DNA of 64,000 nucleotides from Ceratodon purpureus (lineage: Eukaryota > Streptophyta > Bryopsida > Pseudoditrichales > Ditrichaceae). Positions 25,290 through 64,000 of the stretch are shown one piece after another. A program made the translations under genes and the position numbers. The stretch covers positions 20,450,573 through 20,514,572 of the forward strand of contig CM026426.1 in assembly GCA_014871385.1 (NCBI GenBank), written 5' to 3'. The notes beneath the pieces were generated by a model. The model saw only the letters and a list, made by a program, of their open reading frames with translations. It did no database searches and was not told the DNA's origin. Each line of letters begins with the position of its first letter. The stretch's first letter is position 1.

Positions 25290-25555
25290 AAGGCCGTCCA
25301 CCGCGGCGACTGCAAGGGGCCGTCGCCGGGGACGGCCCCCCCCTCCGCGGCGACGGCCTCCCCCCACCGCGGCGACGGCAAGGGGCTGTCGCCGGGGACG
25401 GCCCCCCCCACCGCGGCGACGGCAAGGGGCCGTCGCCGGGGACGGCCCCCCCCTCCGCGGCGACGACAAGGGGCCGTCGCCGGGGACGGCCCCCCCCCAC
25501 TGCGGCGACGACAAGGGGCCGTCGCCGGGGACGGCCCTTTTCCGACGCGGCCGAC

Positions 25556-25592
<37 letters not shown>
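25290..25592. repeat. GC-rich tandem repeat and poly-C run in the right arm
   Basis: About five copies of a 40-60 bp unit containing GGGGCCGTCGCCGGGGACGG followed by C-runs and CCGCGGCGACG, then an unbroken C tract of about 30 bases near 25557-25590. G-quadruplex-forming potential on the minus strand is likely (inference). Confidence 0.75.
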
Positions 25593-25775
25593 TCCGCGGC
25601 GACGGTCGCATCCTCCCCCGCAACCCCTCCCCCGCGTACAAGGTGTGGTTTCACCCCGGGGTGAAACCTATGCGGGTGATTTTTTTTTTCTAAGTCACAG
25701 GACGTCGTGTGGCGCTGGCGGACGTCCGCGGACGTCCCCACGTCCCGAGCGTCCCGGACGACCGTGACAACCCAG

Positions 25776-31036: not shown

Positions 31037-31179
31037 CATGGTTGTCATAATAGACCGACCGTCCGTTAGTCCGTTAGTCCGTCATGGTGACAAGACACAC
31101 CCCCGTGTCCATCACATAAGGGAATTGACCGGTTGACTCACGGAAAGGTTAAAACGAATTTACCTAGCGCTGACTTTTG

Positions 31180-32600
31180 CGCGCGCTCGCGCTCGCGAAC
31201 GTCCGGACGGGCGCGAGCTTACAGGCAGTTACGTTCGCACTCGCCTGTATGTTCGCGCCCGTCCGCACTCGCGCGCGCGCAGACGAGCGCAAACGTATTA
31301 GCGAACGCACACTCAGAAACCAGCCAAAGTTCTGAAAAAAACAAATTTTTTATTTTTTTTTTTTCCCGCACTCGCCCGTATGTTCGCGCCCGTCCGCACT
31401 CGCGCGCGCGCAGACGGGCGCGAACGTATCAGCGAACGCGCACTCAGAAACCAGCCAAAGTTCTGAAAAAAAAAAAAAAAAAAAAAAAAAAAATTATTTA
31501 TTTATTTATTTTTTTGGCACTCGCCCATATGCTCGCGCCCGTCCGCATTCGCCCATCCGCACTCGCCCGATGGCGTACGCCGGACTTCCACCAAGTTGTT
31601 GTTCATTTCATTTTGGTGCTACTCCCACCATTGAGTGCGAGCATTCGGGCGCGCGCACACGGGCGCGAGCAATTGCGCGCGTGCAGACGGGCGCGAACGT
31701 ATCAGCGAACGCACACTCAGAAACCAGCCAAAGTTCTGAAATTATTTTTTTATTTTTTTTATTTTTTTTTCGCACTCGCCTGTACGTTCGCGCGCGTCTG
31801 CACTCGCGCGCGCGCAGACGGGCGCGAACGTATCAGCGAACGCGCACTCAGAAACCAGCCAAAGTTCTGAAAAAAAAAAAAAAAAAAAAAAATATTATTT
31901 ATTTATTTTTTTGGCACTCGCCCGTATGCTCGCGCCCGTTCGCATTCGCCCGTCCGCACTCGCCCGATGGCGTACGCCGGACTTCCACCAAGTTGTTGTT
32001 CATTTCATTTTGGTGCTACTCCCACCATTGAGTGCGAGCAATCGGGCGCGAGCAATCGCGCGCGCGCAGACGGGCGCGAACGTATCAGCGAACGCGCACT
32101 CAGAAACCAGCCAAAGTTCTGAAAAAAAATTTTATTTTTTTTTTTTTTTTTTTTTTGCACTCGCCCGTATATTCGCGCCCGTCCGCACTCGCGCGCGCGC
32201 AGATGGGCGCGAACGTATCAGCGAACGCGCACTCAAAACCAGCCAAAGTTCTGAAATTTTTTTTTTTTTTTTTTTTTTTCGCACTCGCTCGTATGTTCGC
32301 GCCCGTCCGCACTCACGCGCGCGCAGACGGGCGCGAGCGTTTGAGCGAACGCGCACACAGAAACCCGCCAAAGTTTTCGAATTTATTTATTTGTTTATTT
32401 TTTATTTTTTCTTTTCTTTTCGCTCTCGCCTGTATGCTCGCGCCGGTCCGCACTCGCCCGATGGCGTGCGCCGGACTTCCACCAAGTTCTTGATCATTTC
32501 ATTTTGGTGCTACTTCCTCCTTTACACTCGCCGGTATGCTCGCGCCCGAGTATTGGCGCCCGTCCGCACTCGCCTGATAGCTTGCATCGGACTTCCATCA
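31180..32600. repeat. GC-rich tandem array with palindromes and A/T runs
   Basis: Seven copies of a unit with CAGACGGGCGCGAACGTATC as core, preceded by GCACTCGCCCGTATGTTCGC and (GC)n runs, followed by ACCAGCCAAAGTTCTGAAA and then a poly-A or poly-T run of 10-30 bases. CGCGCCCGTC...GACGGGCGCG makes each unit palindromic. Two or three units carry a longer insert with CTTCCACCAAGTTGTTGTTC and CATTTCATTTTGGTGCTACT. Open frames across it are repeat artefacts. Confidence 0.85.
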
Positions 32601-32934
32601 AGAAGGTGTTCATTGCAATTTTATGCACAAATAATTGTTGCTAGACCAAGGAGCTCAATTGCTCAATACGCGATGTGATGGAGATCGATGAGTAATGAGA
32701 ACATTTTGTAATATGATATTAGAATTAAAATAGTAGCAAAAGGCATAGATAATTGATTAGTAGAAGATTTTGGAGTTAGTTTAATTTTGTTTAAACTAGA
32801 ACATTTTGTGTACATTTCCAGTATCTTCGCGTTGATTAAATCATAATCTATTGAAACGTCAATTCATTGTTGACTATGTCGTTCATTACACTTGATGGCT
32901 TTTTATCCATGACTTTTTTTTATATTTCTCCCAT

Positions 32935-33860
32935 TCTATCCCTTTATTTGTTGATTTTTCTATTCTTCTTCCATTCTATCTTCTTGTTTTCCTTTTCTTC
33001 TATATCCAGTGGATGATGTATTTATTTATTTTATTAGCCTTCCATTGGTCTCACATTCTGTCTTTTATTTTTATATATTAAAATTTCCAATTGTCTTCCA
33101 TTCTATCATCTCATCCCTTTAACTTCATTATAATTCCATTCTATCTTCTTCTTTTCCTTTTCTTCCATTCTTAGCCTATCATGTATTTATTTATTTATTT
33201 ATTCTTCCATTGGTTTCACATTCTATCTTTTATTTTTATGTATTAAAATTTCCAATTGTCTTCCATTCTATCATCTCATCCCTTTAACTTCATTATAATT
33301 CCATTCTATCTTCTTCTTTTCCTTTTCTTCCATTCTTAGCCTATCATGTATATATTTATTTAATTAACCTTCCATTGGTCTTACATTCTATCTTTTATTT
33401 TTATATATTAAAATTTCCAATTGTCTTCCATTCTATCATCTCGTCCCTTTTAACTTCATTATAATTCCATTCTATCTTCTTGTTTTCCTTTTCTTCCATT
33501 TCTAGTGGATGATGTATTAATTTATTTATTTATTCTTCGATTAGTCGCCCATGCCATCTTTTATTTTTATTTATTTTTCCAATTGTCTTCTATTCTATCA
33601 TCTTGTTCTTTTTAAGTTCATTATTATTCTGTTTTATCTTCTTATTTTCTTTTTCTTCCATTTCTAGTGGATGATGTATTTATTTATTTATTTTTTCTTC
33701 GATTAATCGCCCATTCCATCTTTAATATTTATATATTTTTTTAATTGTCTTTTATTCTATCATCTTGTTATTTTGAAGTTCATTACTATTCCATTCTATC
33801 TTCTTGTTTTCTTTTTCTTCCATTCTTAGTCTATCATGTATTTATTTTATCATTCCAAGT
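32935..33860. repeat. T-rich tandem repeat, about 165 bp, five to six copies
   Basis: Units share TCTTTTATTTTTATATATTA, CCAATTGTCTTCCATTCTAT, CATTATAATTCCATTCTATC and TTCCATTCTTAGCCTATCAT. The copies at 33061, 33224 and 33390 are nearly identical; the outer ones are more diverged. Confidence 0.8.
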
Positions 33861-34491
33861 CTATGATGTATTTTTTTTCCTATATTTGTTACGTAAACTT
33901 ATTATATGTGCCAATTGAATGAAACATGGTAAATAAATTTAAGAATAACATGAAATATAAGTTATTTACATATTTAATTAATGAATGCAATCATGAACAA
34001 AATATAAAACTATATTTAACAAGAATAACTTTAATAGTACAAAAATCAGGATTCAAATCATACAAGAACATATCTACATGAGATTTGGGAGTTCGGTTTC
34101 ATTTCATTTTTGTGCTAGTTTTTTCTACGCACACCGACACGCACGCACCCAACCTCCACCAAGAAGTTGTTCATTTCATTTTGGTGCTTTATTTTTTCCT
34201 ATGTACATGCCTACATGTACATGCCCAAAGGATGAACTATCACCAAAATGAAATGAACAATTTCTTTGTGAAAGTCTCGCGCCTGAATGCTCGCGCCCGT
34301 AGGCACGCGCACGAGCACTCGGGCGCGCACAAAAAAAAATAAAAAAAAATATATGTGTAAACTGTGAGGACAGTAATTTTGCTCGCGCGGAGGAGCCCGT
34401 CCGATAAGCGTCCGTCCGATAACCGTCCGTCACGTCCGTCACGTGACTACACGACAATTTTATGGCCCATCCGTCTATTATGACAACCCTG

Positions 34492-42909: not shown

Positions 42910-44532
42910 TCAACCTTCGGCCAAAGCAAACAGTCTGCTAGAGCCGGCAGCTGTGGCTCCTAAAGACGACATGCAACGAACAACTCCGTTTCGGGGCACC
43001 GGCGGCGTTTCTAGTGCAGACATACTACGCATGCGCAGGAGGGACTTTGCGACGACAGTTGAGGACACGCGCAACGACCTTGCTTTCCGCTCCTTCACGA
43101 GCTGGTCCGCGAACCAGTCCAGGCGCTCCCGGTTGCTCACGGACAGCGGCATGCGCCCGCCGAAGGGCAGAAACTCCATGCTCTTGTGGTCTAGCACGTC
43201 TTCCGCAAGTTTCACTAGCTGGTTCACGTCGCTCACATCCGCCGGCGCCTGGTTCGGCAACCCTGCCATCTGTCGATGCAACAAAATGGTTAAGCAGAGA
43301 GAGCAAGACATGGAGAGGAGGATGACTAAGCGTTGATGTGGAGCACATGAGGAGGGTGGGTTGGGGCGGGACCTGGATCCGGAGGTAGTGTTTGCGATGC
43401 TCTCCGAAGGCGATGCTGATGGTGTGATCGACCATGTCGGCGACGCCGTCTAGAACGATCTTCGCGAGGGGCTTGACCCATTGTAAGGCGCCCCATCCAC
43501 GGACGGTTTCGTACATGTAGGTTTGGTCGATCTGGCCGGTGCCGAGGGAGAGGACGAGGAGATCCTCGACGCCGCGGACGGAGGGGAATTCGCGCTTGTT
43601 GTGGAGGACGTGGGTGATGGCGGCGGCGGTCGGGTTGTGCATGACGACGCGGCCGTCGATGGCGGTGCAGGAGGTTTTGCCGTCGACGGAGGTGACGCAC
43701 GCGGGGGGGAAGAAAGGGGGCGTGGCGGTGGTGGCGCGGCAAATCTCCCACAGGTTGAAATTCCATGTCTGGCTCTCGAGCGCGTCCGCGCGGGAGAACA
43801 GGAAGGGCGCGGCGCTCGCGAGGTCGTAGCAGGGGATGAGCACGGGCTTGATCGTGTCGCGGAGCGTGAGCGCATTGCCGTCTTCTCGGATGAGGTACTC
43901 CTTGAGGACGTGCTCCAGTGGCTTCGCAGAGAACCGGCAGCTCTTCGTCGACCTTATTCGCAGCTTCGACCATACCGAGGATTTTGCGACTTTCTTAAAC
44001 ACCTCACGTCCCCGCTCTGCCATCAGCTTCCATGCCTCCTCCGCCCGGAAGAGTGGCCTGCTGTTCTCGTCGCCAGTGAAGAGCATTGTGGCCAACAAGC
44101 CTCCAACCGACGTCCCTGCATCACATGCCAATGCAATGTAAATGATTACTCCAAGTGCTCCGAAAATCTGCTCTAAAGTTCTGGCAGGTGACGCCTCAAT
44201 TTCGAGAAGCAGCAATGTGGAATGTGCAGCAATGTGGAATGCGCGGAGTTGGAACCTGTGACGACATCGAAGTAATCCGCGATGCGAGCATCAGGGTCGC
44301 CACTTTTCTGTTGAAGAAGCTCCTCGAGGTGCGCGAGTAAACGAGCAGGGATAATGCCGGGCATGCCGCCACCGTCGAGGCTGAGGATACACACTTTCCC
44401 TCGAAGCTCCGACTTCTTCTCCAGAAAATCTAGATCGTCTCCGACACCGAGCGAGCGCCCCCCTCCCAAACTAATCTCCTCTCGCAGGCTCCCGAAGAAG
44501 GATTCCAAAGCGATGTCCGGACCCCATTCCAT
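42910..44532 (-). CDS. Patatin-like phospholipase A (pPLA, PNPLA family), three exons
   Basis: Exons 44256-44532, 43373-44115 and 42910-43269 with GT-AG introns (140 and 103 bp). Joined they give 1380 nt, 459 residues, with every junction in frame. Seen: oxyanion-hole motif DGGGMPG (residues 53-59), nucleophile motif GTSVG (S95) formed across the first splice junction, catalytic Asp in AIDGR (D246), and NPTAAAITHVLHNKREFP after it. Family knowledge: these enzymes hydrolyse acyl groups from membrane phospho- and galactolipids and affect lipid signalling and growth. The NPTAAAITHVLHNK segment points to the plant pPLAIII group. Angiosperm pPLAIII proteins usually have Gly in place of the catalytic Ser, whereas this one keeps Ser. 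No signal peptide or membrane segment; the C-terminus is Ser/Ala-rich. The only apparently intact gene here. Confidence 0.85.
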
Positions 44533-47220: not shown

Positions 47221-47860
47221 CAGGGCTGATTTTTCACAAAGTCCCAACCCTTCCATGTCCAAAAACCTTGAATTGAAAGGCCAAAAAAAATGGAACCTGT
47301 CCCAAAACCAGTAATCTCAAAACCAACCCATCTATGGAAAGGAAAAAAAAAACATCCCGTCCCAAAACCGGTTGAAAAAAATAGGACCCGTCCCGTAGTA
47401 TTTGTAAATGCTTTTATTAAAAAAGACCATTTTTTTTTTTTTAAATAAATTTAAAAATGCCAAGGGCTCTCAGTACAAAGCCGTTGTCCTGGCCTGGCCC
47501 GGCCCAAAAGCCCGACCCGGCCTGGCCATTGAGCCCGGCCCTGGTCCAGAGCCCCTGCAGCACAGGGAGCAGAGCAGCGACTTAGTGAGCACAGAGCAGG
47601 CTGGCTGCTGCGGGGAGACAAAGAGCAGGTTGCGCAGCATTTTTCAAGTGCTGCGGTTTCCAGTGGAGGGGGGACTTCTTCAATTGTTTTTTTGAGAGGT
47701 ACGTTTGTTGACATTTTATTATTTCATCTTCTTTCAAGTGTTATACAAGTAATGTGTAGAAGAATAAACATAGAGTCTAGATTTAGGGCAGGTTACACAT
47801 TTAGGGTTTTTGTATTTCATGTGAGTGGTGATTGATGTATTTTGAATTTTCATTGCAGTC

Positions 47861-48409
47861 ATGTCTTTGCCAGTGTCTGGAGTACCCAGACAAAGGAGAG
47901 ATGCCCGGCATCAAAGCATTCTCCATATGTTTAGGGCATCTTCTTCTTCTCAAACTTTGAGTGATGGGAGGAATGAAGTGCCTGAGTTGTCAGAATCCTC
48001 TGTTAGGGGTTCTCCACGTGGTATTCCAGATGTTGAGGTAGAGCAAGGTGGCATTGAAGATCATGATCACACTGAGGAGGACACTGAGATGGGGGAGGGC
48101 AATGATTTGGATGATAGTGCAAATAATGAGGATAGTGTAGGAGTACATGTTCCAGTTCATGGTGGTGGAGGACGGCCTCCAAGGAAGAGGAAGTTTATGC
48201 CGGCATGGCGTCAGAGAAGGCCCTGGTTGATGCACATTGCTCCCCCTAGACAGAAGCCCTACATGAAGTGTGCAACATGTACAGCAGCTGGTCAAAACTC
48301 ACGATGGGGGACCAGAGGAGAAGGTTGTGAATCATTGCAACTTTCAGCTGTGAAGGAGCACGAAGGATCAATCCTTCATGCTCATGCCATGCTCAGATGG
48401 AGACCATGA
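47861..48409 (+). pseudogene. hAT transposase, N-terminal part with TTF-type zinc finger
   Basis: Starts MSLPVSGVPRQRRDARHQSI. An acidic stretch is followed by PPRKRKFMPAWRQRRPWL and a Cys/His finger: MKCATCTAAGQNSRWGTRG, then a Cys, then VKEHEGSILHAHAML. This is the TTF-type finger found at the start of many hAT transposases and ZNF862-like proteins (family knowledge). The frame shifts near 48395: the continuation (METMRNNREAVAMARHVVNA) is in another frame, with two stops (near 48475 and 48657) before the next open block. Confidence 0.7.
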
Positions 48410-48660
48410 GAAACAACCGTGAGGCAGTTGCCATGGCTAGACATGTGGTAAATGCCATTGATGCAGAGAGTGCCTGAATTGTATGTTGTATGAAGATTTT
48501 ATACCATTTGGTAGTTAATGATAGAGCTATCAACCAGTATGACGGTATGTGTCAGATAACTAGACACCTCAGGGCTCTAGACATGCCTGTCAATGATGAG
48601 TACAATGCTTACACTAGTAGACAATCTGCATATGATTTTTTGTGGACCATTTCATAGCAT

Positions 48661-50280
48661 TTGAGGGATGTTGATCTTTTAGGAGTTAGAGATTCACCGG
48701 TGATCTCTCTTCTTGTAGATGAATCAACCGATCGTAGTCTAGAGCAGCATTTGATTGTCTATGTTTGCAGTTTACCGCGTGGTGGCTTAGGCCCTCCACG
48801 TATGCAGTATGTTGGTTTATCTGGTGTTCCACGAACCATAAGAGAGGTATTCTACAGGAATGTGGTGGGTTTATTGGAGGAGTTCCAGTGGCCTCTGGAG
48901 AAATTAGTGGCTTTAGCTACTGATGGAGAAGCTTCTATGACTGGGGTGAGACAAGGACTAGCAAGCAGACTTCAAGCTGATGTATCAACACTTATTAATG
49001 TGCATTGCATTGCACATAGGTGAGTCTTTAATTTTAAGATTTTTTTTTATGACTTTCATTATTTTCTAGAATGTAATATGATCACTAATGAATTCATGTG
49101 TTTGTTTAGAGATGCATTGGCAGCCATTGATGCAGGTGAGGCATCACCGGAGCTGCGGGTTTTGGATGATTTCTCCAACTTTGCATACACGTGGATGGGT
49201 AGGTCATCATTACGGTGGACACAGCTTAATCAGCTGATGGTGGAGTTTGCGATAGATCCATTGGTTGTTCTCCACATACATGGAGTTCGATGGTTATCCT
49301 GTGGACAAGTGATGGAGCGGGTATTGGATTGCATGCCCTCATTTCTGAAGCTTTTCCGTGAAGAAGAAGAAATGTGGTATCGTAAACTTACATCCTTTCA
49401 GTTTCAATTTCTTCTACGGTTACTTGTGGATATTCTTACTGAGTTGAATAAACTCAATAAGCTATTTCAGAGTGACCATGTGGATATTACTCAAATTCGA
49501 GGTCATTTAAACATTTGTATCAATATATTGAGCAGACGTTTTCTAGCAGCTAGAGGTGCAGCATTTGGAAGAGGTTCAAAGGCATTGTGGCCATTTTTGG
49601 AGACCTGTGCAACTTCTATGGAGATGGAGTATCCAATTGCAGATGGTGGCATGAGAAATTATCCAATGCATTTGGAGAGTGTTATTAGAAGAGCTGGCAC
49701 TACCGAGGAGTGCAGACTTATTGGGGCAGAGAATGTGTAGAGGGTGGTGGATGCATTGAATAACAGGTTTCCAGACTTAGGCATCTTCAATGCATTCAAG
49801 CTCTTCAGCCTCTACAGCCCCAATCTCTATCCTGCAGATGATGAGGAGAGGACTCGAATTACTGAGGAATGGTTGGAGATGTTATTTGTGAAGTTCCAGA
49901 GTTCTGAAGCAGAAAAAGATCGGTGTCGAGGTGAGTGCTTGGAGATGGTAGAGACCATGAGAGAGATGATTCCAAATAAGTCTTTATTTGAAGTATGGGA
50001 GTTTGCACGTACAACTCCAGAGTGGTGCATCAATTGGCCTGGTTTGAGTAACTTGTGGAGGAGAGTTATGGTGATTCCTGTGAGCACGGCAATATGTGAG
50101 AGGGGTTTTTCCAAACAGAACGTGATCAAGAGTCATCTCCGTACTAGCTTGAAGTTGGAGACTTTGGATGCTTTGATGCGCATTTCATGTGCAAACATTC
50201 CAGTTGAAAACATCAATTGGAATGCAATGATGCTTGTTTGGAAAAACATGGAGGATAGGAGAATTCATCCACATGTTTGA
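48661..50280 (+). pseudogene. hAT transposase, catalytic and dimerisation regions
   Basis: Continues the same protein. LLVDESTDRSLEQHLIVYV carries the first catalytic Asp region, LVALATDGEASMTGVRQGL the second Asp, and NVHCIAHR the conserved CxxH. A GT-AG intron at 49020-49109 joins HCIAHR to DALAAIDAGE. The open part continues to a TAG at 49738, then resumes in frame to 50280 and ends with the hAT dimerisation motif (STAICERGFSKQNVIKSHLR, then LDALMRIS). Transposase cuts and rejoins the element's ends. With one frameshift and three stops in total this copy is probably inactive, but few changes separate it from an open frame. Confidence 0.8.
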
Positions 50281-50714: not shown

Positions 50715-51060
50715 TATGAACATAGGCTCCGGAAAGGGTGCTATTTCCAAGCCCCAACCACGATGGACATATTAGGGCCCCCAATGCCACGTCAGCTATA
50801 ATCCCCTCTCTCACACATGGTCAAGACCTAGGTTTAGCTATGAGCCTGAAGCATCAAACAACACCGAAACAGAACCATGCCCCTAAAGCAGGGCTTTGCA
50901 TTCACTTCCCAAGCTCCAAGGATAGGCCTCTCCCACTATCCTCCAAATATAACAAAAAAAAGCAAGAATTGGAATAGCATGGCCTAACATGAAATGAAAG
51001 CCAACACTAATTAATGTTGTGTAACAACTTGGATGCATACGGATCACTGTAATGTAGTCC
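50715..51060. other. Intergenic spacer
   Basis: No gene or clear repeat between the hAT element and the MITE. Confidence 0.4.
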
Positions 51061-51278
51061 TACGAGCGTTTTTTGGAGGGGCAGACTTGATGAGCCCCTA
51101 GTTTTTGGTTTTTTATTTTAAAATTCCTAAGGAAGTCCTCCTAGAGTAATTTGGGGCCGTAGGCCCCATTTTTGAATATAAAATTACCAAAAATGGTCAT
51201 GGGGGGTCCAAATTAAAAATTTCAAGGTTTTGGAAGAAAAAAGCCAACCAATGGAAGTGGCTCTTAAAAACGCTCGTA
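51061..51278. repeat. MITE, 218 bp
   Basis: TACGAGCGTTTTT at the left and its exact complement at 51266-51278. A non-coding interior includes GGGGCCGTAGGCCCC. If TA is the duplicated target, it would be a Tc1/mariner-type MITE (inference). Confidence 0.7.
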
Positions 51279-51338
51279 GCACTAAAATACATGGATCTGG
51301 TGCATACGTGTATCAGACAATAGAGTTATTTGTAAAGG

Positions 51339-51510
51339 CACTACGCCAAACTTTGACTCCTGGGGTTGGCCGGCTTGGGACTTTGGGGATGGCACTCCCG
51401 GGAGTTAAGAGGCCCGAAGCATAAGGGCTGGCCGGACCAATCAGGAGTCTCGGGAAATCCTTATTTTAAGGGTTCTGCTCCCGGGAGTCGTAGAAGAGCA
51501 GGAGTTCGAA
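51339..51510. repeat. CACTA terminal and subterminal repeats
   Basis: Terminal CACTACGCC with four or more copies of an ACTCCCGGGAGT-like word in both orientations. Subterminal arrays of this kind bind the element's TNPA-type protein in En/Spm (family knowledge). Confidence 0.65.
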
Positions 51511-52252
51511 CAGAGTTACCCCTCCCAGTTGTCGTGGCAGCACTGCAGGCTTCCTCAGGTCACTCATGTCGTCTATCGCACTTTGGATTGTGTAAATAAA
51601 AATTTATTTTAACTTTTAATTTGTTCAAAACGAATCTAGCTGTCCTTCCGGATGCTGTGAACTCTGAGCGGTTACTTTGTTTCAGCGACCGTTAAGTTCA
51701 TTCAAGTCGTATCACCTTACTGTGTTAATGAGTTCCTCACATTATATTGCAAGAATAATTGAACTGAGGAAACGAAGGTACCCAAAAAAGAAAGAAATAG
51801 AACAGTCATTCACAGCCAATCCATTAAAGTGGAAGTCATTCATTCTGCGTGTAAACCCTGTAGAGTACGCTCACATTACAGAAAGGAAAATTTCAAACTG
51901 TTTCTGTTTCTACTGTCACGACCTCTGGTGAAATGGATTTTCACATCCGATGAGGTGTTCTATATAGCCTACGACTATGAAAGATACCTATATCCTTCCA
52001 AAAGCAAGTACCACGGCAGTGAGTAACACAAGGAAAATTGAAAATGTATGTGGTTCACGGTGAAGTATAGCCTACGATCTCTGCGGTACTACATTTACAT
52101 ATGAGAACTGGAAAATGGCAGGAGGAGTAAATGTTAATAGTGACATGTGTACTGGTCTATTATTCACTTCAGCCCTCACTCACTACACTTTATATACACA
52201 TTACCAAATCAACAAACAAGATACAAACACAATCCACTGGGTCTTCATTCAT

Positions 52253-55200
52253 TCAACCTGATATTGTCGTCGTAGCCTTGTCCAGCATTTCCAACCCCCA
52301 GTACATTGCATCCTCTACGATTGTCTTCTGATGATCCTGCGACTCCAAGCTAGTGCTGTCCTCGCTAACATCTGTCGCCTGCTCGGGAGGTTGGTAGCTA
52401 GGAGACAGGGGGTTTACAAATGTTGTCCCGGACCACTTTGGAGGGCTGAGCTCCGACGCTCTCGACGTGCTCGCACCGGCATTGCCCGCTGGCAATCTGT
52501 TTTCGGCACACCATTTTTGTAGAGGGGTCCTGGATGGTGTAGGTTGTAGGGGCCTCATGAGCTTCAGTATATCTATTTCAACTTCTGGTGGTTTCTTCAG
52601 AGGCTCATACATATCGTCGTCGTCTACATCGAAGAGAGGACCCTACTGCTCGTTTACGGCGGTAACATGTGCCGTTAGCTCATCCTCGTCGTGCTTGACG
52701 TCTTCTTCGGCTTCTCCATGAACACGGTGGTCACAGTCTTCTTCTCCCTCTTCCCATTCCTCTCTCCGACTTTTGTCTTCTTCATGGCGATTAAATTCCC
52801 CCATTCTTGCACTGTCTTCCGGCGATCCTGAGTGCTTTTCCTCATTGTCTCCATTCCTTGGACCTGTAGAAACGAAATGAAAACGTTTAAGTCAATAAAA
52901 AAAAACGAGCACTGGCAACCTCCATATCCTCTAAGACGACATAAACGTCTGATCCTCTCTGTAACTTAACAGTTGTGCACGGGCCACACGTCGAGGAGTA
53001 AAATAAAATATGCTTCCTTATACAAACATATTGTACATTAACACGTTTTCAACCTATTGTGAACTGTGAATGTTGTTACCTGTGACATTGCTCTGGAATA
53101 GACCTGACCAACTCTTCCCAGTAGTTTGCACACCGTAGTTGGCATTTCGAACATGATTTGTGGCATTAAACTCCCCTGGCCATTCACGTGCATTACCCCT
53201 GTTCGGAACTACGTCTGCTGCATTACCCCCAAAAAAATTATTAAAAAAATTTCTATCAGATAAAAATCAGTCCCACTCTACATACGTTTCACAGTACAGA
53301 AATCGTAGAATATCGAAACTGATTTACACTTTACTTACTCAGGATGTTGTCTTCTCCATGGCGGTTGAACTCTTTGGCATTTTTATTGTCCTCCGATGAT
53401 TGTGAGTTCTTCCCTCCCTCGTCGTCACTCTCTGGTCCTGTCCAAACAAATCAAATGTTTACGTTAGTCACCTCTATCCGAAACCCATGATTATTGTGCT
53501 AGAGCGGATTGAATGTACAGAAAGATGCAAATCAGATCAATGGACATCACGTTAGTAAGAATTGAGGACATTGCATACGATGATGCTCAATGTCACCGGC
53601 TGGAAACGTGGTCTATAAATAAATCAATAAATTAATTAACTAGGGATTAAAAACAAACACTGGCGAACGAGGAAAATTAATAGTAAAAAAAAAAGGGCCA
53701 GTCCTCCCACTAAGTCAACAATTAAAACTACATGAATAAGTGAGAGGAAAACAAGAGAATTCCCATTCTACAACCATATATTATATTCTGACTCGTTTCC
53801 AAGCACTTGTGAAAGTGTGGAGACGCTACCTAGGTTGTCGCTCCTGAACAGGCCTGACCAACTCTTACCACCAGTCTGTTCACCCTGGTTGCGACCAGGG
53901 AAAGCATTTGTGCAGAAAGACCTTACCGGTCCTTCTTGTGCATTTATCTCGTCTACATCTACATCCTCTGGATTAGCAAAAAACAAATATGTGTTAGTGA
54001 ATTATCATCCACACTATACATGTGTTCCATTATACAATCGCTGTCTAGTTTGCTAAACTGAAATACAGTTTACTTACTTCGTGTATTATCTTCTCGCTCC
54101 GGAGATCCATGTACAGGAGTTACTCGATCTCCACTGGATTTTTCATTATTATGTGGATTCTCTCCCAGCCAGTCCGAAATGCTATTCGGCTCTTCATTGT
54201 CTGAACATTCCAAATTCCTCACCGGCCTAAGCGAGTCTGTCAACATATACAATACAAAAGGGAGTTATGCTACAAACAGTGCGCTTCCATCAAGGAACTT
54301 CAACTGAGTATTTTGAAGATACAAAACTCTTGTTCATCGAGAGGAATCTGTATTAGATTACGAATACATGAGGACAAGCACCTTCAAACATAGTGAATGT
54401 GCTGCAATGTAAATGTATCCAGTCAGGGGTAAATGTAATCACACGGACCTTTGTTTTGGGTCCCGCTCGTTTTGTCACTACCATGGCACGACATTGTGCA
54501 ACGTCGGGGGGGATTTCTCCTCCGTGCTTCAGGATAGAAGTACCCTCTGGCTCTCTTTAGTGGAAGATTAGTTTGCTTTTTTTCTAGTTGCACCGCCCCT
54601 GACAAATGGGCATGGACGTCTACCCCCTGCACAAATACCTTTTTAGACTTTAGTTCATGTATGTATATGTAGACTACGTATACACATCAACAAGAGCAAA
54701 TCATTTACAACGTAGCATTTGCTCACCAAGATCATACCTCAGTGTGCAAGGTCATTTCCGCTTGAACGGTAGGTTGGCAGGTTTTGTTTTTTCCCTTCAA
54801 AAGTGTCGAATCTGTGTCGCAATCTTGAACTCTGGATTCCCTGCTCGGGCGTCCCCGAGTTTTTGCGAGGCCAAGTTGGATTCTGTTACGCTCTTCCTCT
54901 GCCACGCGAGCTTCCCGTTCCAGCAACTCTTCAAAAGGACCGTCATGATTGTTCGCTTTCCAAGTTGCAAACGTTGCCCAGTCAATGTTGTCCGGTCCAT
55001 ATTTTTCTTCTGCAACCCATCCTAGAGCAAAAAACAAAGGGACACTGGAACCCATAGGTTGCTGGTGAACTTCTTCGTAACGCTTCTTCATGGCGGTGTA
55101 GTTGACGTAGCCTTTGGAAATGTTGAAGCCGTTTTTTTCTTTCCGTTCTCCCCAGCGTGCAATGCACTCCTCCTCGTTTGCTATTGACTCGGGTAAACCA

Positions 55201-55280
55201 CCCGGGCTAGGCAAGAAACCGCGGTGAGGAAGCCTCTTTTCCCTCTTAAACCATTTCCTTTGACCCTTCGCTGGTTCCAT
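52253..55280 (-). CDS. Seven-exon CACTA-associated gene with duplicated exon pairs (TNPA-like position)
   Basis: Exons by splice signals: 54738-55280, 54449-54626, 54078-54236, 53830-53967, 53339-53437, 53080-53217, 52253-52863. Joined length is 1866 nt with all junctions in frame. The start is ATG 55280 (MEPAKGQRKWFKREKRLPHR). N-terminal exon: basic then long charged helix (LLEREARVAEEERNRIQLGL). From exon 3 on, exons alternate: A-type (SPEREDN; SSEDNKNAKEFNRHGEDN; SPEDSARMGEFNRHEED) and B-type (TGGKSWSGLFRSDN; TTGKSWSGLFQSN, both exactly 138 nt). All A/B junctions have the same phase. An in-frame TAG at 52643-52645 (codon 492) may end the protein early; the frame stays open beyond it to 52253. 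No family recognised. Position and many exons recall TNPA, the DNA-binding regulator of En/Spm (inference). Confidence 0.65.
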
Positions 55281-58200
55281 GTCTAGTTCTGTAAAAAAGT
55301 GTCTGCAAGAAAAATAAATAAAATGAAAAGAACTTCAATCAAACAAGTCATTCACGGGCATTGAAGTTTTCTCCATATCTGTAAATGTTCATCAGTACTC
55401 GTTTGAGGCATATTACATTTTCCGAAACCATCAAGTTCGAACATCGGCAACGCAAGCTCCAAACGAGACAGTGTGTTCTCGAAGCAAAAGAAATTAAACG
55501 CTCACAACCGGTATCTGTTTTCAACACAGTCTGGTCCGAGATTCAAATACTTCGTTGTTTAGTAAACTCTGAGAGGTCGAAGTATAAGTCCTATCACAAG
55601 AACAGGGATTGTGGTAAAGAAAAACATGTTAGTGCGTGACATAGAACTATTATTCTGTGAAGCGATGAGGGGCTAAAAAAAAATGGTTTTAACGGATAAA
55701 CAATCCAGACCGGATGCATATTGAACGCCAGATACCTACATTGTTTATACATGTAAGCTAGAACGACCTGTCACTGCCACGACAAGCTTCATTGTGCAGT
55801 GCGAGACTAACAGAGAATCAGATTTTTTACTTTTAATTGACGACCATGGCACAATCAGAGCGTACTCAACAATCAGTGTCATGAACTCTTTGTTCATTCA
55901 CTCACTACATTGAAGTCAGCAAACGAAACAAAACAAGCTTCGGAATCAACGGAAAAAACAGAGACCATCGACTATCAATTGGTACAGTGCGTGATGGAGT
56001 AGAAAAGCGAACCTGCTCGCATCCCACTAACGATCGCAACGCCACAAAGATGTCGCACTTCTGGGCCGATTGCCAGTCAAAGAAGCCAGGTAAATGATCA
56101 AACTATGGACGATAACTGGCGGGGAGGCAAAGCAGTAATGGACGTTACAATCCAAACACGTGATCTCTATTGCACCAACATAAACCCACAATCAAATACA
56201 ACACACAAACTTTGGAGACAACCAACATACGTCGGTTCTGTGAGAAATCAACGACATTTAACGGCGCATTCCAAATTTCACCCTTGACTCTCAATTGGCA
56301 TACTAAGGATCAAAAACAAGTTGTACTCACATAGTCGCGTACTGCTGTCGATTGGACGAGGCTCAGGACTCCGCACTTCTGCTCCGATCACAAATCAACC
56401 GAAACCAAAATCAGAAATTGATGATTAAGACTATCAACTACAACGGCCGAGAGGAACAAGTGAAATCAGCGGCACCCACAACATACTCGACATGTAATGC
56501 CTCGTGTTCCACCCACAACCTAACTAAACACCAGTTACGGAAACTCTCAACGCGTACACTGTTCCGCGAGCATCGGAGCAAACACGACCTCCATCTCTCG
56601 AAAAGGTAAACGGGATAAACAAAAACACTTAGTCACCTGGTTGCGCACCGCTGCTGATCACAACGCCGCAGAGATTCTCAAGTTCTGCACTGCAATCGAC
56701 CACACAATGTAGCACACAACGATGAGGAACAAACATGAAAAATGAAGCGCACGAGTACTGCAGTGGTCAGGGCGTGTTATATGTACCCTGGTTCATACAC
56801 AAAAGAACACGCTGGATCGCGCACAAATGATAGCCAGTACCAAAGGTGATTCAATGACAGCCATTACTGCATGTCCCATGCATTCACATCTGGGATCACC
56901 ATATCTCTCGAGTCTCTTCTCACTTGATGGATGGAGCAAGATTTGACGCAGTTGTGTCGATCCATGATGACGACTTGACGGGTGAGGCTCTTGTCTCGTC
57001 CACTGCACTCATCACCTGGAGAACTTTGAGTCTGAATCGACATCCCAGTTCATGTAAGTGTCAGGACTGTTTTCTGCTCGTCGCGTCACATCTGATTGCT
57101 ACAATCATTTCAAACAATGGATCAGACAAAGGAAGGTCTTAGCAAATGTGGATTGCAGATGAACAAAAGCATACAGTCTTTACTGTTCAATAGTGAAAAT
57201 AAGCACTCCTTTCCAGTATTATTGTATTGTGAGGCCTTAAGTCGTGAACATCACCGTGGTTATAGCAACGTTCTTTACTTTATAGTGCAACATTCTCGAG
57301 ACTTGTGCTATTCACTGACATGTTTCTAAAATGACATTCAGTGCAGACAGTCTCAAGAGTAGTTATCATGTCCTCTAATTTTGGTTTCCGCTATCTTCGG
57401 CACAAAATTATGATAGTACTATTCTTTATCAGATAACACTCACGTTTGAAAATAAAAAGGGTAAGAAAAAACCTATGAAAAACCTATTAAAAAAAAAAAA
57501 AAAAAACACAACTTATGAAAGAATGATAAGATGGTTGAGAATGAGATTCTTCACTGCCATATGACAATGTGGTTTCACTCTTTCGCATGATGATACGTTC
57601 AACTCCTAATGTTTTGATGGAGCGTGTTAAACATACACTTCAACCAGGAGTCTGTACTTCAAGTTCACTCGGTTTTCAGCTGTTCATTTGCATCATAATA
57701 AATAAGTACATATGGAACTAATAGCTGAGACAAATAGAAAGGAAATAAATTAAAAACAAATGATTTAAAAATAAATAAAAAAATATTTAATGTTTGAAAT
57801 ACAATAACTTTCAAAATGATTTAGTAATCCAGCTACGGTTTTAAAATTTTTTTCCCAGTTTCTTGCTTCCTTGTACTGCTGCAACTACATTTTTAGATAA
57901 ACAATAGATATCGCAGTGGGAAATAGTGCTGGATTTTATTAATCCCTCAGCTCCTCTTAGGCTCAATTTTTTATAGTTGAACTTAGAGAATGTCAACTTC
58001 ACTTACGCAGATTACGTGCACATAATGAAAGACATCAACTTCGTCTGAGAGAACATCATGTCACAGTGGCATTAAAGGCGATTTGATTGGTCTCTTTACC
58101 GGCTTGGGGCGTCTATATTTGTCTCGCCTAGATTCCTTTATCCTGTATCGCTCCAAATCTCTAACAAACAAAGTAAAACATGCGTTAGCACGATTGTAGT

Positions 58201-59252
58201 TCAAAAACATGTACTGGAAAAAGGAAACCAAGAAAACTTACTATGAGGGTGGGATACAACACTTGGTCTTACAGATGCATCAGAAAATCAAACATTCGGC
58301 ATTGACATAATGAACTAGCATTATCGAATAGGCGTTAAAAGTGAGTACTCAGCCGAATGAAGATAACACTATGACCAAAGTAGATAAACATCGTATGGAC
58401 CAAAAAAATTGAAACATTACATAAAGACATTCATTGTAGGAGATAAGGAACCAAACCAATGTCGGGGCAGTCGTATCGTCTAGTTGGCCGGGTGAAGACC
58501 TGCTACAGAATCAAACTGCCTTCTTTTTATGCGTTTTCTGCGAAAAATCCATGATTACACAACAGAAAGCTATCCATATCATACATGTGGAATGATTTTC
58601 CTTACCAAACCACTACCCCCCATCCCCCCCCCCCCCCCCCCCCAACTCACCCCCTTCTCCCACTACTGAAGCCAATTAAACAGCGCAGGTGAAACCGTTG
58701 CAGTTTTTGTATTTTCTAGCAGAATCAAAAGACAAATTTGTAATCATATAAAAAACAATAAAATTTGAAACAAGTGTCACACGAACCACAGTCAAAAAAT
58801 AAATGGCAGTACCAATGTGCATCCATGAAGTAACATCATATTACAATGAAGTATCAGATGTATTCAACACAAAAAACAACGATAAAACGACTATCAGCTG
58901 GCTATAAACGTCAAAATGTATGTGTTGATGCATGGTCCTTCCAAGTCATGCCGTTCCCTTCAGATCAAACCTTGTGTAAGTGTGTCCCTGTTCCAAAGCA
59001 TGGAATCACATGTGATACAGCCATTATATTTCAAATATTCAACAAACAACTTTCAGAAATGTCACATCAACGTCGACGGAAGAAACACAACTCACAAACC
59101 TTTCTTGCCACCAAATCGTAACAGTACATCACTACTGTCAGTTTTGTATGCGGATTAAAAATGACAATTGCGAAGGTAACCACAACATTACGAAGTGTCA
59201 ACATGTCCAGGTAGACGAGTTGCTTACAATACGGGGTAGACAGCATCTCACG
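55281..59252. other. Non-coding interior of the CACTA element
   Basis: No gene supported. Three diverged copies of a segment about 310 bp apart (near 56010, 56330, 56640) share CGCA-C-CTGCT, GCACTTCTG and CGAT-sensitive words; each ends in a donor-like GGTAA or GGTGA on one strand. A C-run lies at 58627-58642. It may be a long intron or leader of the downstream gene. Confidence 0.4.
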
Positions 59253-59921
59253 TCATGTGCTTCTTGCCGATGGTTCTTCCTTTGCTGCGTTGATAAACTT
59301 CCCAAGCGTCTTGGTCAATGAAAACTTCTTCTTAGTTCTTTTCATTTCCCGGATCTCAGCGACCTCGACGGGATGAAGATCTTCAAGCCTACCTTTCGGA
59401 CGCGTGCGGATGTGCTCGGCAATTCTGCGCTCTCGTTCTTTCGCTTTCATATCGTCAGACAATGTAGCAGTAAGAGGATGTTGGGGTTTGGATTCGACAT
59501 GTGCAATAATCCCAGTATCATCTGGTTTTTTCTCCTCAGCCACTGCGGTAGTGATATTGCCTTGCACAACATCTTCGACAGGGCCGAGTATTTGGGAGGA
59601 CGTTCCTTCTTCTGCTGCTCTCCTAGTTGCTCTCAGCGCCTTCGCTCTCTCCCTCCTTTTGGCACCGAAGATCCACTTCGGTGTTTCGTACTTTGGTTCG
59701 GTCAACGAGTGAGGAATTGTTTTTAAAAAACCATATCCCACACGCTCTATTTCTTGGTCTGCTGCTCGATCAGTCGCACTCATTGTTTGAGTGTCGTCAA
59801 GTGCGAGTGGCTCTTCATCTCCCTGTATCACATTGCTCTCTACTACCGAGTATGTTGTCTCCTGTGTGTGGAGTGGGTCATTGTCCTCTGCTATCGACGC
59901 AATGTTATCCGAACTAGCCAT
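59253..59921 (-). CDS. Hypothetical charged protein in the CACTA element, 222 aa
   Basis: Starts at ATG 59921 (MASSDNIASIAEDNDPLHTQ), eleven bases inside an acceptor TTCGCTACAG. Acidic N-terminal half; basic C-terminal half with KWIFGAKRRERAKALRATRR and EIREMKRTKKKFSLTKTLG. Its start resembles that of the next upstream frame (MARSENTALKSGDNN), and the two are preceded by homologous introns. Family unknown; it may be a nucleic-acid-binding accessory protein (inference). The stop at 59253 may be real, as no donor was found before it. Confidence 0.5.
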   Translation of the reverse strand: MASSDNIASIAEDNDPLHTQETTYSVVESNVIQGDEEPLALDDTQTMSATDRAADQEIERVGYGFLKTIPHSLTEPKYETPKWIFGAKRRERAKALRATRRAAEEGTSSQILGPVEDVVQGNITTAVAEEKKPDDTGIIAHVESKPQHPLTATLSDDMKAKERERRIAEHIRTRPKGRLEDLHPVEVAEIREMKRTKKKFSLTKTLGKFINAAKEEPSARST

Positions 59922-59928
59922 CGTATGC

Positions 59929-60468
59929 CTGTAGCGAAGAAACACGTGATAATATCAAAACATACGTAGGTGTAGCAAGACAACACTCGACTATTACAAA
60001 GCGAAACAGTCATACAACAGTACAGGGCATTCAGCGAGCCAAAAAAAAAAGGAAAACACAATGACCACTCATTGATATTTATCCCTATTGTAATCGCCAA
60101 CGTTACGACCCATACAGAAAGGGATAGGAAAAAGCTAAGGATTGACAGGTACATTACATATAGTCCAGTGAAGGTTCTCTTACAGACGACACTTGTCCTT
60201 GATCGATGAGTCCTCTCTCGCCCAGTCCGTCATCTGCATGTAGAGGACCACATACATAATCTAATTAGTCACTTCCACCCTCGAACATCTGAAAACGCGC
60301 AACATATTGCATCCCTAAATCCTGTTGAATGATGATTGTGCACAAACATTTTTGAACAAATATCAAAGTCTTCATCTGACACTCAATCTGTAGCCATTAA
60401 ATGACATCTCAGTCTGACAAGTAATAGGAATTTTGAAAGCTAGACTTCACGGTGTGAGAAAACCTTAC
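59929..60468 (-). repeat. Duplicated intron, copy 2 (540 bp)
   Basis: Bounded by a donor ACAT/GTAAGG and an acceptor TTCGCTACAG on the minus strand. Aligns along its length with 60852-61402: ACTCGACTATTACAAA, GTACAGGGCAT, CAACGTT, CAGACGACA and CTGCATGTA recur in the same order and spacing. Confidence 0.75.
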
Positions 60469-60844
60469 ATGTTTGCGACGTCTGGTTCGGCAGCGACTTA
60501 GGAATCGGCGTAGGGGAAGTGCCCTTGTGCAGGGCAGCAAGCACAGGATTTCGGAAGAAAGTGAATAATCTTGGCATAACAGGAAAGTATCGTACCACAC
60601 GACGTGGCACTAGGCTTTTTCCACGTCTCCTGTGCCTGCTCGCACCGCATTTGGGGCAGGAATCCAAATCGCCACATGTGTCGCCTCGAAATATAACGCA
60701 TTGGTTCGGGCAAGCATTGACAATATCATATTTGAGCCCAAGTTGTTTGGGCGTTCTCATATTTGATGCCCCATGTTGAGACACTGGCAGGCTGATTGGG
60801 TTGTTGTCCCCAGATTTCAAAGCAGTGTTCTCTGAGCGAGCCAT
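60469..60844 (-). pseudogene. TNP2-like transposase fragment (cysteine motif region)
   Basis: Starts at ATG 60844 (MARSENTALKSGDNN). Residues YDIVNACPNQCVIFRGDTCG, then DLDSCPKCGASRHRR and VPRRVVRYFPVMPRL match the stretch just before the catalytic core of TNP2/Transposase_21 proteins of CACTA elements: ...ACPNDC.L(Y/F)...., CPVCG.SRY, VP.KVL.YFPI.PRL (family knowledge). The exon ends at a donor (ACAT/GTAAGG), and joining to the next exon would not keep the frame. In normal CACTA transposases this segment precedes DUF4218 and DUF4216; here it lies after them. It is therefore a displaced piece, or belongs to a second element copy. Confidence 0.7.
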
Positions 60845-60851
60845 CTTATAC

Positions 60852-61402
60852 CTGTAGCAAATAAGCAAGTTTTAATGTCAAATCATACACCGCAAATAAG
60901 TCAAGCCTCGACTATTATAAAACAATGCGACCATACAAAAGTACATGGCATACACCGGGGAAAATAAATGAATGACTATTCCCTATTCATTTTTGCTACA
61001 ATACGCAACGTTGATAGCTATGCATAAAGGAGCAGCAAAAGATACGGATACACACACAGTTTATCTGAAGTCGACGGAAGGTTATCATGCAGACGACAGT
61101 TGTACTGGAGACCTAACTCTTCTCTCGGTGAATCCGTTATTTGCATGTACAAATCTGATCACATCACCAACCAGAACACCTCCACTCCCGAACTATGTAA
61201 AGGGCGTAAAAATTATTAACGACCAAATGTTTTAAACGACTGTTTGTGCACAAAGTATCACTGAAGTACATACAAACCCTTACAATATCTACCCAACGTC
61301 TGATATACGTCATGGTCTGGATTTTCTTATGAGCAACACAATGATACCATCTCCCAACATTAATAATGAGCTTTTGAAAATACAGATCAAAGAACACCTT
61401 AC
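60852..61402 (-). repeat. Duplicated intron, copy 1 (551 bp)
   Basis: Donor ACAT/GTAAGG at the right, acceptor TTTGCTACAG at the left on the minus strand. Homologous to 59929-60468. Confidence 0.75.
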
Positions 61403-61419
61403 ATGTATGTATTGTAAAT

Positions 61420-62522
61420 TTAATCACCAGCATTGGCGTCGCCGTAAGGCAAGTCCTCTTCGTCCTCGTCGTAGTCTTCTTCCAACCAGACGGCAAAATC
61501 GTTGTCTGGTTCTCTCTGCTGCGCGACCGCCCTAACTTCCGCCTCGGGTACGTTTTGACCGACAGCATTGATGTCCCCTTCCTCGCTTGTTTCACCTGTA
61601 TCTGAGTTGTTCGCTCGATTGCCAGACCACCTGCGAGGATTTTGCAATCCATGTGTAAGGGGATTTGCAAGACCTGGTGCATCGAAAACGTGTTCCGCAG
61701 ACTCTAGACGTTGAAAGTCGTCATCTTCCTGCGTGTGACGCTTGGACCGTGGAGACTTCTCCACCACAACCTTCCAGTCCTCGTCCTCGGGATCATTCAC
61801 GAAGAACACCTATCACCCAATCCAGGTAACATAACCATATATTCAGTACAAGACCTTTGTGATAATCAGAAATGGCGAATGCAGCTAAATCGAACATTAA
61901 AAAGCTTGTGCAATTCAGAAATTGTTTGGTTACTGAGCACTTAGTGAACAAAGAGAAACAATTAAAAGGTTTAGGAAGAAGAAAAACCTGCGACACAGAG
62001 TAGGGAAACACGTAAGGGTTTTCCCTCAACGGATCTTGACGAGAGTTGTATTTGACCAGCCAAAAGCCATGCTCATCGTGACGGATGGAGGGATTTCTTG
62101 CGAGATTCGGACGAATCCAAGAGCATTTCATCACAGTTCGCGTCATAGTGATGTAGGTAACAACAATGATCCGCTTCAGTATGCCAATATAAGGAAGGTC
62201 GGCGTCCACAATATTTGCATCTTGCGCGGAAGCACGACAGCCTTGGGGAGACATAACGAACACTCCAGAGTCAAACGTCTCGTGTGTAACTGACTCGTCC
62301 TCGGGTAAGCATCGGTAATGATTACCGTATGCCCACATCGCGTTATACTCTTCAGCCTCTTTCGATGGGAGACCTGACATCAGTGCTAAATCTGTGTCGA
62401 CACGCTCTCCACTATCGATCTTGGTTTGCACTTGATCATGGTGCCAATCCACGAATTCAGGTAACGGATGCTGCCTCCCTCTTCTTCTCCCAGCTCGATC
62501 TCCCTGTAGCCCTTCATATTCT
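61420..62522 (-). CDS. DUF4216 region of a CACTA transposase (two exons)
   Basis: Exon 61988-62522 begins after acceptor TTCTATTGCAG; intron 61810-61987; exon 61420-61809. Joined, the frame holds (CAG/GTG). Seen: LPEFVDWHHDQVQ, LALMSGLPSKEAEEYNAMWA (a fragment typical of the segment before the domain), GNHYRCLPED, TFDSGVFV, PYIGILKRIIVVTY, then across the intron FPYSVSQ/VFFVNDPEDEDWKVVVE. These match DUF4216 (PF13952), the C-terminal domain of TNP2 proteins, whose usual ending is QA.QVFYV.D...K.W.VV (family knowledge). A long acidic tail (DYDEDEEDLPYGD) ends in TAA at 61420. Looks intact as far as it goes. Confidence 0.8.
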
Positions 62523-62676
62523 CTGCAATAGAAATTCATAACTTTGACAAACGTGAAGATAATAACATAAGTGTATTGTACAGTAGATAATTGCATGATA
62601 CAATTAAACTGAGGTTATGGACTTATTGTTATGAACACCAAACACTGGAAACGATAAATTGCGGAAAAGTACTCAC

Positions 62677-63239
62677 CTTCAGAGATCCTAGGTTGGAACA
62701 GAGTTCCAAACGATATACTTATGAATATCCAATCTCTCTCGATCAGTGAGCCATATATTTTTGATGGCTCCTTCTACACTTTCTCCGTAGTTCTTTACAT
62801 CTTCCTCCATATCCCACATCCTCATTTTTATGTAGGGGGAGAGATTAGTGTAGTCTGTAACAAATCCCAACAATTCATTCGCCAAATAACCGGACGCCAT
62901 GCTTGCCTTAGGCTCGTGTCTGTTATGCACGTACTGCTTCAAAATGTACAGGTACCTCTCTACTCCGTAGCAGCATCTACTTTGAACCGGCCCAAAAACA
63001 CGCAACTCCTTAACAAGGTGAATAATCAAATGAGTCATGGGGTTAAAAAAACCAGGAGGGAACCAAATCTCTAGCAAACAAAGAGTCTCAGCCGTATAAG
63101 TCTCTAGTTCCTTGAGTTCGTCTCTATCAATCACTTTAGCACATACTCTCTTGAAGACGTTTCCCATTCTGATAACCACATCACGTGCCCTTGGATGCAA
63201 GAATCTTCGTATTGGCGCTGGGATGATTTGTGGGATCCG
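62677..63239 (-). pseudogene. DUF4218 exon of the same CACTA transposase
   Basis: The minus strand reads RIPQIIPAPIRRFLHPRARD, then VCAKVIDRDELKELE, ETLCLLEIWFPPGFFNPMTH, LIIHLVKELRVFGPVQSRCC, YGVERYLYILKQYVHNRHEP and ASGYLANELLGF. This is DUF4218 (PF13960; family knowledge: E.L...FPPSFFD.M.HL..HL..E....GPV..R.MYP.ER....LK.YVRN). An in-frame TAG lies at about 62688, just before the donor GAAG/GTGAGT at 62677, and an in-frame TGA precedes the exon. Either a stop has disabled the chain, or this exon ends a separate reading frame. The catalytic TNP2 domain expected upstream is absent. Confidence 0.75.
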
Positions 63240-63245
63240 AGAAAC

Positions 63246-63591
63246 TCAGAATAAACCGGAAGAGCCTCATCCGGTGTTAGTATTCCATTAATTTTTCATT
63301 TTTTTGGTTAATTAGGTAAAACTAGCTAGACACTAGCTGCATTAGGAGTTAACGCAAACCGGATACTCCAGAAACCTAAAAACAGTTAACGTAGGAAGTA
63401 TTCTCGGAACCTTGATTTCGGAAAACTTGGAAGAGAAAATACGGAACGGGTTGACGATCCAAGAACTGACTGTTATCGTAACCGCGTCTAGGATCCAAAA
63501 CGACGCGGAAGTCATCATGACTCGGATAGGCGTCTAGCTCGGTACGGTGGCGGCTGCAATTACGAGCCGCCGCAGCGTTTATGATGCCCGG
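63246..63591. other. Upstream region of the right-edge gene
   Basis: No frame. The boundary with the CACTA body lies near 63245-63290. A word starting TGTTAGTATTCC near 63277 could be the start of an LTR or other element, but no partner is in the window. Confidence 0.35.
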
Positions 63592-63751
63592 TGTATATAA
63601 GCGGGAGTGTTAGGGTTTGGAGTTCCTTTTTGCGGACTGGGAGTAGGGAGTGAAAGAGTGGTGAGGTGTTTTGTCTTTTCCGATTCACTAGCAGTTGGAT
63701 TGCCGGGTTTCTTGCTGTCGGATCGCAAAGGGAGAGAAGTGAGACGTAGAA
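63592..63751 (+). promoter_or_regulatory. TATA box and 5' leader of the right-edge gene
   Basis: GTATATAAGCGGG at about 63592-63604 is a good plant TATA box. About 150 bases of T/G-rich leader follow, without an ATG before 63752. Confidence 0.65.
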
Positions 63752-64000
63752 ATGGCGCACGTCCAGTGTAGAGTTCTTAGTCCTGGCACTCTGGTGAAAG
63801 AGTCGGAGATGGAAGAATTGATTGCCGATCTCACCCGAATGAGGTGCCAGGGTTTGCTGTCACGACCGTGGTTGCTGAAGAATGAGGCGATGGTGAGGGA
63901 GGTCCAGGACGCGCCGGACAATAGGTGGGACAATTCGATCCGGGGCAAGCCCACGCTGTGGAGTGCGGAACAGTGGGCAGAAACTTACGACTTCGAGCAA
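63752..64000 (+). CDS. Start of an unidentified protein, open to the window end
   Basis: ATG at 63752 opens a frame of 83 codons running off the right edge (MAHVQCRVLSPGTLVKESEM at the start, GKPTLWSAEQWAETYDFEQ at the end). High-quality coding look: no stops, balanced composition, and a TATA box about 150 bases upstream. The family is not recognised; Trp-rich GK..LW..E.W..TYDF text could belong to a mobile-element gag-like or DNA-binding protein, but this is a guess. A shadow frame on the other strand is less likely. Confidence 0.6.
   Translation, partial: MAHVQCRVLSPGTLVKESEMEELIADLTRMRCQGLLSRPWLLKNEAMVREVQDAPDNRWDNSIRGKPTLWSAEQWAETYDFEQ

Follow-up and report, generated by a model that had tools for sequence, protein, structure and literature searches.

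The window, which is the whole 64,000-nucleotide stretch of Ceratodon purpureus DNA analyzed here, lies at 20.45-20.51 Mb of contig C6 (110.5 Mb), and the search was extended to the complete 362-Mb assembly of 151 contigs. The part of a CACTA element that falls inside the window occupies 51339..64000 on the minus strand. Homology with a related element on contig C4 starts exactly at 51339, continues to 63231, where a foreign insert begins, and is found again from 66907, beyond the window. The low-coordinate end is marked by a terminal repeat (51339..51364, plus strand) that begins with CACTACGCCAAA, the only exact CACTACGCCAAA in the window, and homology ended at this position when 338 bases beyond it were tested against the C4 element and 39 bases beyond it against the copy L010. 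The C4 element (9614401 to 9638167, 23,767 bp) has a perfect 26-bp inverted repeat, so that its counterpart of the window repeat pairs at 26/26 bp with its own other end. A relative on contig C7 (6659517 to 6681554), the inside of which was fetched partly, has 29-bp inverted repeats. Elements of this family are about 22-24 kb in size, and the window shows one end. A 3-bp target duplication was found in one of the two elements tested: TGG lies on both sides of the C7 element, while the C4 element is flanked by GTA and TGT and has no target duplication.

Six ACTCC(C/T)G sites, distributed over both strands and regarded as candidate binding sites, form a subterminal cluster at 51356..51505. Thus 6 of the 19 ACTCCYG sites in the window fall in the 150 bp at the 51339 end; five are present at the same end of the C4 element, and one or two at its far end. 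Such clustering would be as expected for a binding array.

The transposase gene was found upstream on the minus strand. Its C-terminal part consists of two open frames (61423..62614), and the matching C4 frame showed similarity to DUF4216 at E 0.0017, which is below the cut-off. A DUF4218 piece (62691..63245, PF13960, E 1.9e-31) is cut at 63231 by the insert. The tnp2 region of the window element falls beyond 64000; the C4 element carries both Transposase_21 (tnp2, 1.5e-63) and DUF4218 (1.9e-32). The sequence-only reading had placed the repeat gene in a CACTA element, and this setting is supported by the end at 51339, by DUF4218 upstream of that gene, by tnp2 in the C4 element and by the 3-bp duplication in one relative. 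The insert in the DUF4218 exon, about 3.7 kb relative to the C4 copy (63231 to 66907), is bordered by alignments that overlap by 7 bases, perhaps a target duplication. Between the transposase gene and the repeat gene lies a 233-aa open frame (59256..59954, minus strand), which has no Pfam match and is open in the C4 element too. A second exon like the N-terminal part of the transposase gene was observed at 60443-60871 (minus strand); 219 bases of it align at 75% identity with the main exon of this kind, which lies further upstream, and it is also present in the C4 element.

Several other features were observed in the window. A decayed hAT element with a broken frame and in-frame stops lies at 47846-50280 on the plus strand (zf-C17orf113, 2.5e-9; hAT dimerisation, 4.6e-7). 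A possible MITE with 37-nt inverted arms, 81% complementary and 182 nt apart, is found at 51042-51297, just outside the CACTA end. Palindromic repeats of the TAGACCACTGCCGTTGCCGGCAGTGGT type, about 64 bp apart, at 15150-18010 resemble a transposon end array. GC-rich islands with short palindromic repeats (CGGCCGTCCCCG...GGGGACGGCCG) lie at 21576-22260 and 25071-25610, and repeats of 120-165 nt that contain GCGCGC and poly-T tracts are arrayed at 31176-34330. Two open frames were also noted, one of 421 aa at 43025-44290 (minus strand) with a patatin-like phospholipase match (2.7e-12), and one of 1136 aa at 560-3970 (plus strand) without a Pfam match.

The repeat gene (52253..55280, minus strand) has seven exons with a total length of 1866 nt, and all six introns are GT-AG. 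Exon E1 (55280-54738, 543 nt) encodes a conserved N-terminal domain with an RGRP core, as seen in 150 scored genome matches and in alignments. Exon E2 (54626-54449, 178 nt) is basic and contains an RRRNPPRRCT piece that also occurs in relatives. It is followed by A1 (54236-54078, 159 nt), B1 (53967-53830, 138 nt), which carries TGGKSWSGLFRS, A2 (53437-53339, 99 nt), which carries EFNRHGED, and B2 (53217-53080, 138 nt), which carries TTGKSWSGLFQS. The last exon (52863-52253, 611 nt) comprises A3 and the terminal part. The coordinates, the exon order A1-B1-A2-B2-A3, the lengths, including the equal 138 nt of B1 and B2, and the 1866-nt sum given by the sequence-only reading were all correct on recomputation. 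That reading had also noted equal phase at both ends of each exon in this region. A1, B1, A2 and B2 are flanked by phase-1 introns and have lengths divisible by three, so that an A-B pair can be added without a change of frame; the E1/E2 intron is in phase 0.

The 1866 nt had been taken as a reading frame, but an in-frame TAG at 52645-52643 (minus strand) had been overlooked; the frame is not open and the window gene is not intact. The window copy codes for 491 aa up to the TAG, which is followed by 129 more open codons, and an open run of this length was reached in 39 of 20000 Markov sequences. The window copy thus ends ahead of the conserved C-terminal part, and the (P)KWSGTTF motif is located past the stop. 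A sense codon is present at the same place in both sister copies examined, L009 and L010, which rules out a reassigned TAG codon. A hidden intron that would excise the TAG was also considered (42 in-frame GT-AG pairs, the best of 117 nt), and it was judged possible but unnecessary, since the sister copies keep the terminal exon open without one. The other in-frame stops noted in the window belong to the decayed hAT element. The window copy is judged to be dead, since the stop interrupts its last exon and its transposase gene is split.

We then analyzed the relationship between the exon pairs. In a self-alignment of introns and exons, A1-intron-B1-intron and A2-intron-B2-intron formed one co-linear, end-to-end alignment with 358 of 493 ungapped sites identical and 126 gap columns, and the exon edges fell on the same columns. 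The alignment score was 221, in comparison with a maximum of 80.5 among 500 Markov controls and of 91 among 376 pairs of random window stretches. The DNA similarity of B1 to B2, and that of A2 to A3, was reached by 0 of 300 shuffles each, so resemblance by chance was not what was found for these pairs. The two A-to-B introns were alike (0/200 shuffles as good), as were the two B-to-A introns (0/200). Because introns align with introns, genomic DNA was duplicated, not spliced RNA. However, the similarity of A1 alone to A2 and A3 was not convincing at the level of DNA (102/300 and 15/300 shuffles as good) or protein (504/1000 and 321/1000). A1 is too diverged for confident recognition by itself, and its kinship follows from the co-linear unit with a common donor and intron. 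Taken alone, the run of eight identical residues in B1 and B2 is nominal (468/20000 permutations), the A-exon identity run was reached in 3792/20000 permutations, and the B1/B2 values of dN 0.51 and dS 0.85 alone prove little.

A candidate third copy of B was observed after A3. In protein shuffles it gave 2/1000 and 6/1000, and it ranked 3 of 791 segments in a Smith-Waterman comparison, behind B1 and B2 themselves; hmmsearch gave E = 11, and DNA shuffles gave 138/1000 and 446/1000. The family has a separate terminal motif, KWSGxxF, for which an ancient kinship with KSWxGLF is conceivable.

The number of A-B pairs differed among three copies of this one element. L009, on contig C4, is 92-96% identical to the window copy and contains three A2-B2 units at a spacing of 702 bp, adjacent units being 98.2% identical, which gives four A-B pairs. 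When the exon model from the window was applied, L009 showed an open frame of 724 aa in 11 exons with ten GT-AG introns, and its terminal exon was 165 nt shorter than that in the window, in frame. L010 (C6, 54.2 Mb) is 97% identical to the window copy and has two pairs, as the window copy has; it carries a stop at codon 10 and has lost the acceptor at A2, and its 5' end was not found within the stretch fetched. The earlier reading had called for a genome search for copies with other numbers of A-B pairs, and L009 is such a copy. Units 2-4 of L009 are closest to one another, and thus the L009 array is young. The gene model finds its strongest support in the open frame of L009. Growth of the gene by duplication of phase-matched exon pairs, as claimed from the window, is therefore strongly supported by the four pairs of L009, its open frame and the introns copied along with the exons, and the repeated units are read as exon pairs with their introns, tandemly duplicated as genomic DNA.

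At a spacing of 702 bp and an identity of 98.2%, units can be mis-assembled, and the four-pair copy could be an assembly artefact, with copy number in fact invariant. We consider this highly improbable, because the L009 units are mutually different, the 724-aa frame with its ten GT-AG introns is open, and older, diverged arrays exist in other subfamilies.

The family was examined across the genome with E1, which gave 150 scored matches out of 511 candidates. E1 matched seven entries of the public protein collection; four of them have counterparts in this genome with 94-100% identity, and these four may derive from this species or a close relative. At E <= 1e-50, 25 of 40 E1 matches (window counted) were located on C6, which makes up 30.5% of the assembly (binomial 2.9e-5). 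U and V chromosomes of more than 100 Mb each and a 360-Mb genome are described for C. purpureus in the consulted part of PMC8000587, and we infer that C6 is a sex chromosome. A distant E1 family (L035, about 37% identity) was found at 60 places on many contigs, and the equal score of 53 bits at all of them would suit a recent amplification; a CACTA end was not recognised in L035.

Twenty-five of the 150 E1 loci were fetched with downstream DNA, and motifs were counted over 26 sequences. Direct repeats 300-1000 bp apart were present in the 3.5 kb after E1 at 13 of 25 loci, which are not fully independent (L012, L013 and L015 are near-copies) and among which L010 scored none despite its two pairs; among the controls, such repeats were present in 1 of 19 pieces from farther downstream and in 3 of 14 from the window, those from the window containing tandem arrays of their own. 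Credible KSWxGLF motifs were found in 11 of 26 sequences, and all reverse strands together gave one match. The motif occurs twice in the window copy and L010, once in L017, and four times in L009, L011, L012, L013, L015 and L016; L014 has four and one KSCRGLF, and L032 has three and one with a stop. Isolated matches in L021, L022, L023, L024 and L030 were discounted. The other 15 of 26 sequences were without a credible KSWxGLF, and the family as a whole thus does not depend on this motif. The terminal KWSGxxF was present in 13 of 26 sequences and on none of the reverse strands, and the RGRP core in 23 of 24 sequences of sufficient length.

Modules of other kinds were found in the same region. 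In L018, L020 and L025 the duplicated stretch carries YCSIRFH instead of KSWxGLF, and a 424-bp unit with FSFTAFLGNAGAG occurs three times in L033, so that three module types, KSWxGLF, YCSIRFH and FSFTAFLGNAG, are represented among the fetched relatives. Units 1, 2 and 4 of L011, though not unit 3, are closest to the units at the same positions in L016 or L032, which shows that this array is old. L032 and L016 were also considered as a case of three versus four units; this was rejected, since the stop lies inside a fourth L032 unit and the copy number is equal. When exon edges were located automatically, 12 of 12 units of the near-copies L012, L013 and L015 had lengths divisible by three, but only 4 of 10 units measured in L014, L011, L016 and L032. 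Equal phase is thus shown for the window subfamily and for L012, L013 and L015, not for all.

The gene has no match to any described transposon protein, as would be seen if a host gene, or a captured host fragment, lay inside the element by chance. We give this explanation almost no credence, since 150 scored E1 copies are present in the genome and in several subfamilies E1 is followed downstream by CACTA-type terminal ends.

Codon changes differed among the exons. E1 is constrained, as judged from dN 0.024 and dS 0.171 between L012 and L014. Between the window copy and L009, the changed codons of A1 and A2 were 18 nonsynonymous and 1 synonymous, those of B1 were 0 nonsynonymous and 3 synonymous, and those of B2 were 4 nonsynonymous and 0 synonymous. 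For all exons, dN/dS was 0.51 for window/L009, and the remaining pairs of copies gave 0.84 and 0.57; these values rest on small numbers and may be blurred by two dead copies. The fast change of the A parts, the acidic, low-complexity composition of the middle region, the variation of unit type among subfamilies and the nominal B1/B2 identity run would all agree with tandem duplications inside the gene that are neutral: a middle that is a disordered linker with in-phase introns would tolerate them, and the copy number would have no function. However, KSWxGLF is retained in 11 of 26 sequences from several subfamilies and B1 shows no nonsynonymous change, and we regard neutral duplication as a possibility to be taken seriously although an unlikely one. 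The better argument for function would be the recurrence of KSWxGLF across subfamilies, rather than B1/B2 alone.

In the predicted protein, an AT-hook-like core lies within the N-terminal domain, the middle is built of acidic A parts and of B parts with KSWxGLF, and the C-terminal part carries KWSGTxF. RGRP, the core motif of AT-hook proteins, is found here in E1. No Pfam family was found above the cut-off for E1, a B exon or the A3 part, the AT-hook family included, and for E1 neither sequence nor fold comparison, the PDB included, pointed to a known protein. The position beside the transposase gene, the RGRP core, the basic exon 2 and the ACTCCYG cluster suggest a TNPA-like DNA-binding partner. 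We favour, with moderate confidence, a protein in the TNPA position in which a conserved N-terminal domain and a conserved C-terminal motif enclose a modular middle region, and this region grows through exchange between introns of equal phase. It is taken as plausibly working like TNPA, and is not filed as TNPA.

In the proposed mechanism, unequal crossing-over or slippage would add A-B pairs, because same-phase introns tolerate additions. The N-terminal domain would bind the subterminal ACTCCYG cluster, the repeated aromatic KSWxGLF motifs could act as docking sites, and the number of units could tune valency toward the element ends, the transposase or the protein itself. Selection on copy number, multivalency and DNA binding would be part of this reading. 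A wider proposal is that the CACTA family amplifies interchangeable exon modules (KSWxGLF, YCSIRFH, FSFTAFLGNAG) repeatedly and independently between fixed ends, with module number as a selected valency dial that would set sister elements apart in how they bind ends, recruit the transposase or escape cross-regulation; we offer it as a speculation that is rather improbable as it stands.

In host genes, symmetric-phase exons are known to undergo tandem duplication together with their introns. Same-phase exons and introns are duplicated here as well, but the gene belongs to a transposon, the unit is an exon pair, and its number varies among copies of one element in one genome. According to the consulted part of PMC2613891, TNPA of En/Spm in maize and TNP1 of Tam1 in Antirrhinum are likewise the products of a second multi-exon CACTA gene beside tnpD/tnp2, and these second proteins have little mutual sequence similarity, so that the lack of a family match is weak evidence against a protein of the TNPA type. 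Known TNPAs bind subterminal repeats (PMC2613891, same part), while binding by the moss protein is suggested by candidate sites. The moss gene differs from TNPA and TNP1 in that no sequence or fold relation was detected and in its tandemly repeated exon module in the middle. Tgmt, a 20.5-kb CACTA element of soybean, is similar in its large size, CACTA ends, 3-bp duplication, tnp2 and presumed binding protein, but an exon-pair array is not among the Tgmt features described in that part of PMC2613891. No report of an exon-pair array in a CACTA gene was found among the papers listed in searches of an open full-text collection, including the consulted parts of PMC2613891, PMC9946827 and PMC8978399.

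These copies bear on the cause of the large divergence among CACTA second proteins. Sister copies in one genome show the change midway: the ends, the neighbour genes and the N- and C-terminal parts are the same, and the pairs number two versus four. They provide a natural example of an element, not a host gene, in which exon pairs were amplified, and the effect of the valency of a repetitive region on transposition, repression and specificity becomes testable.
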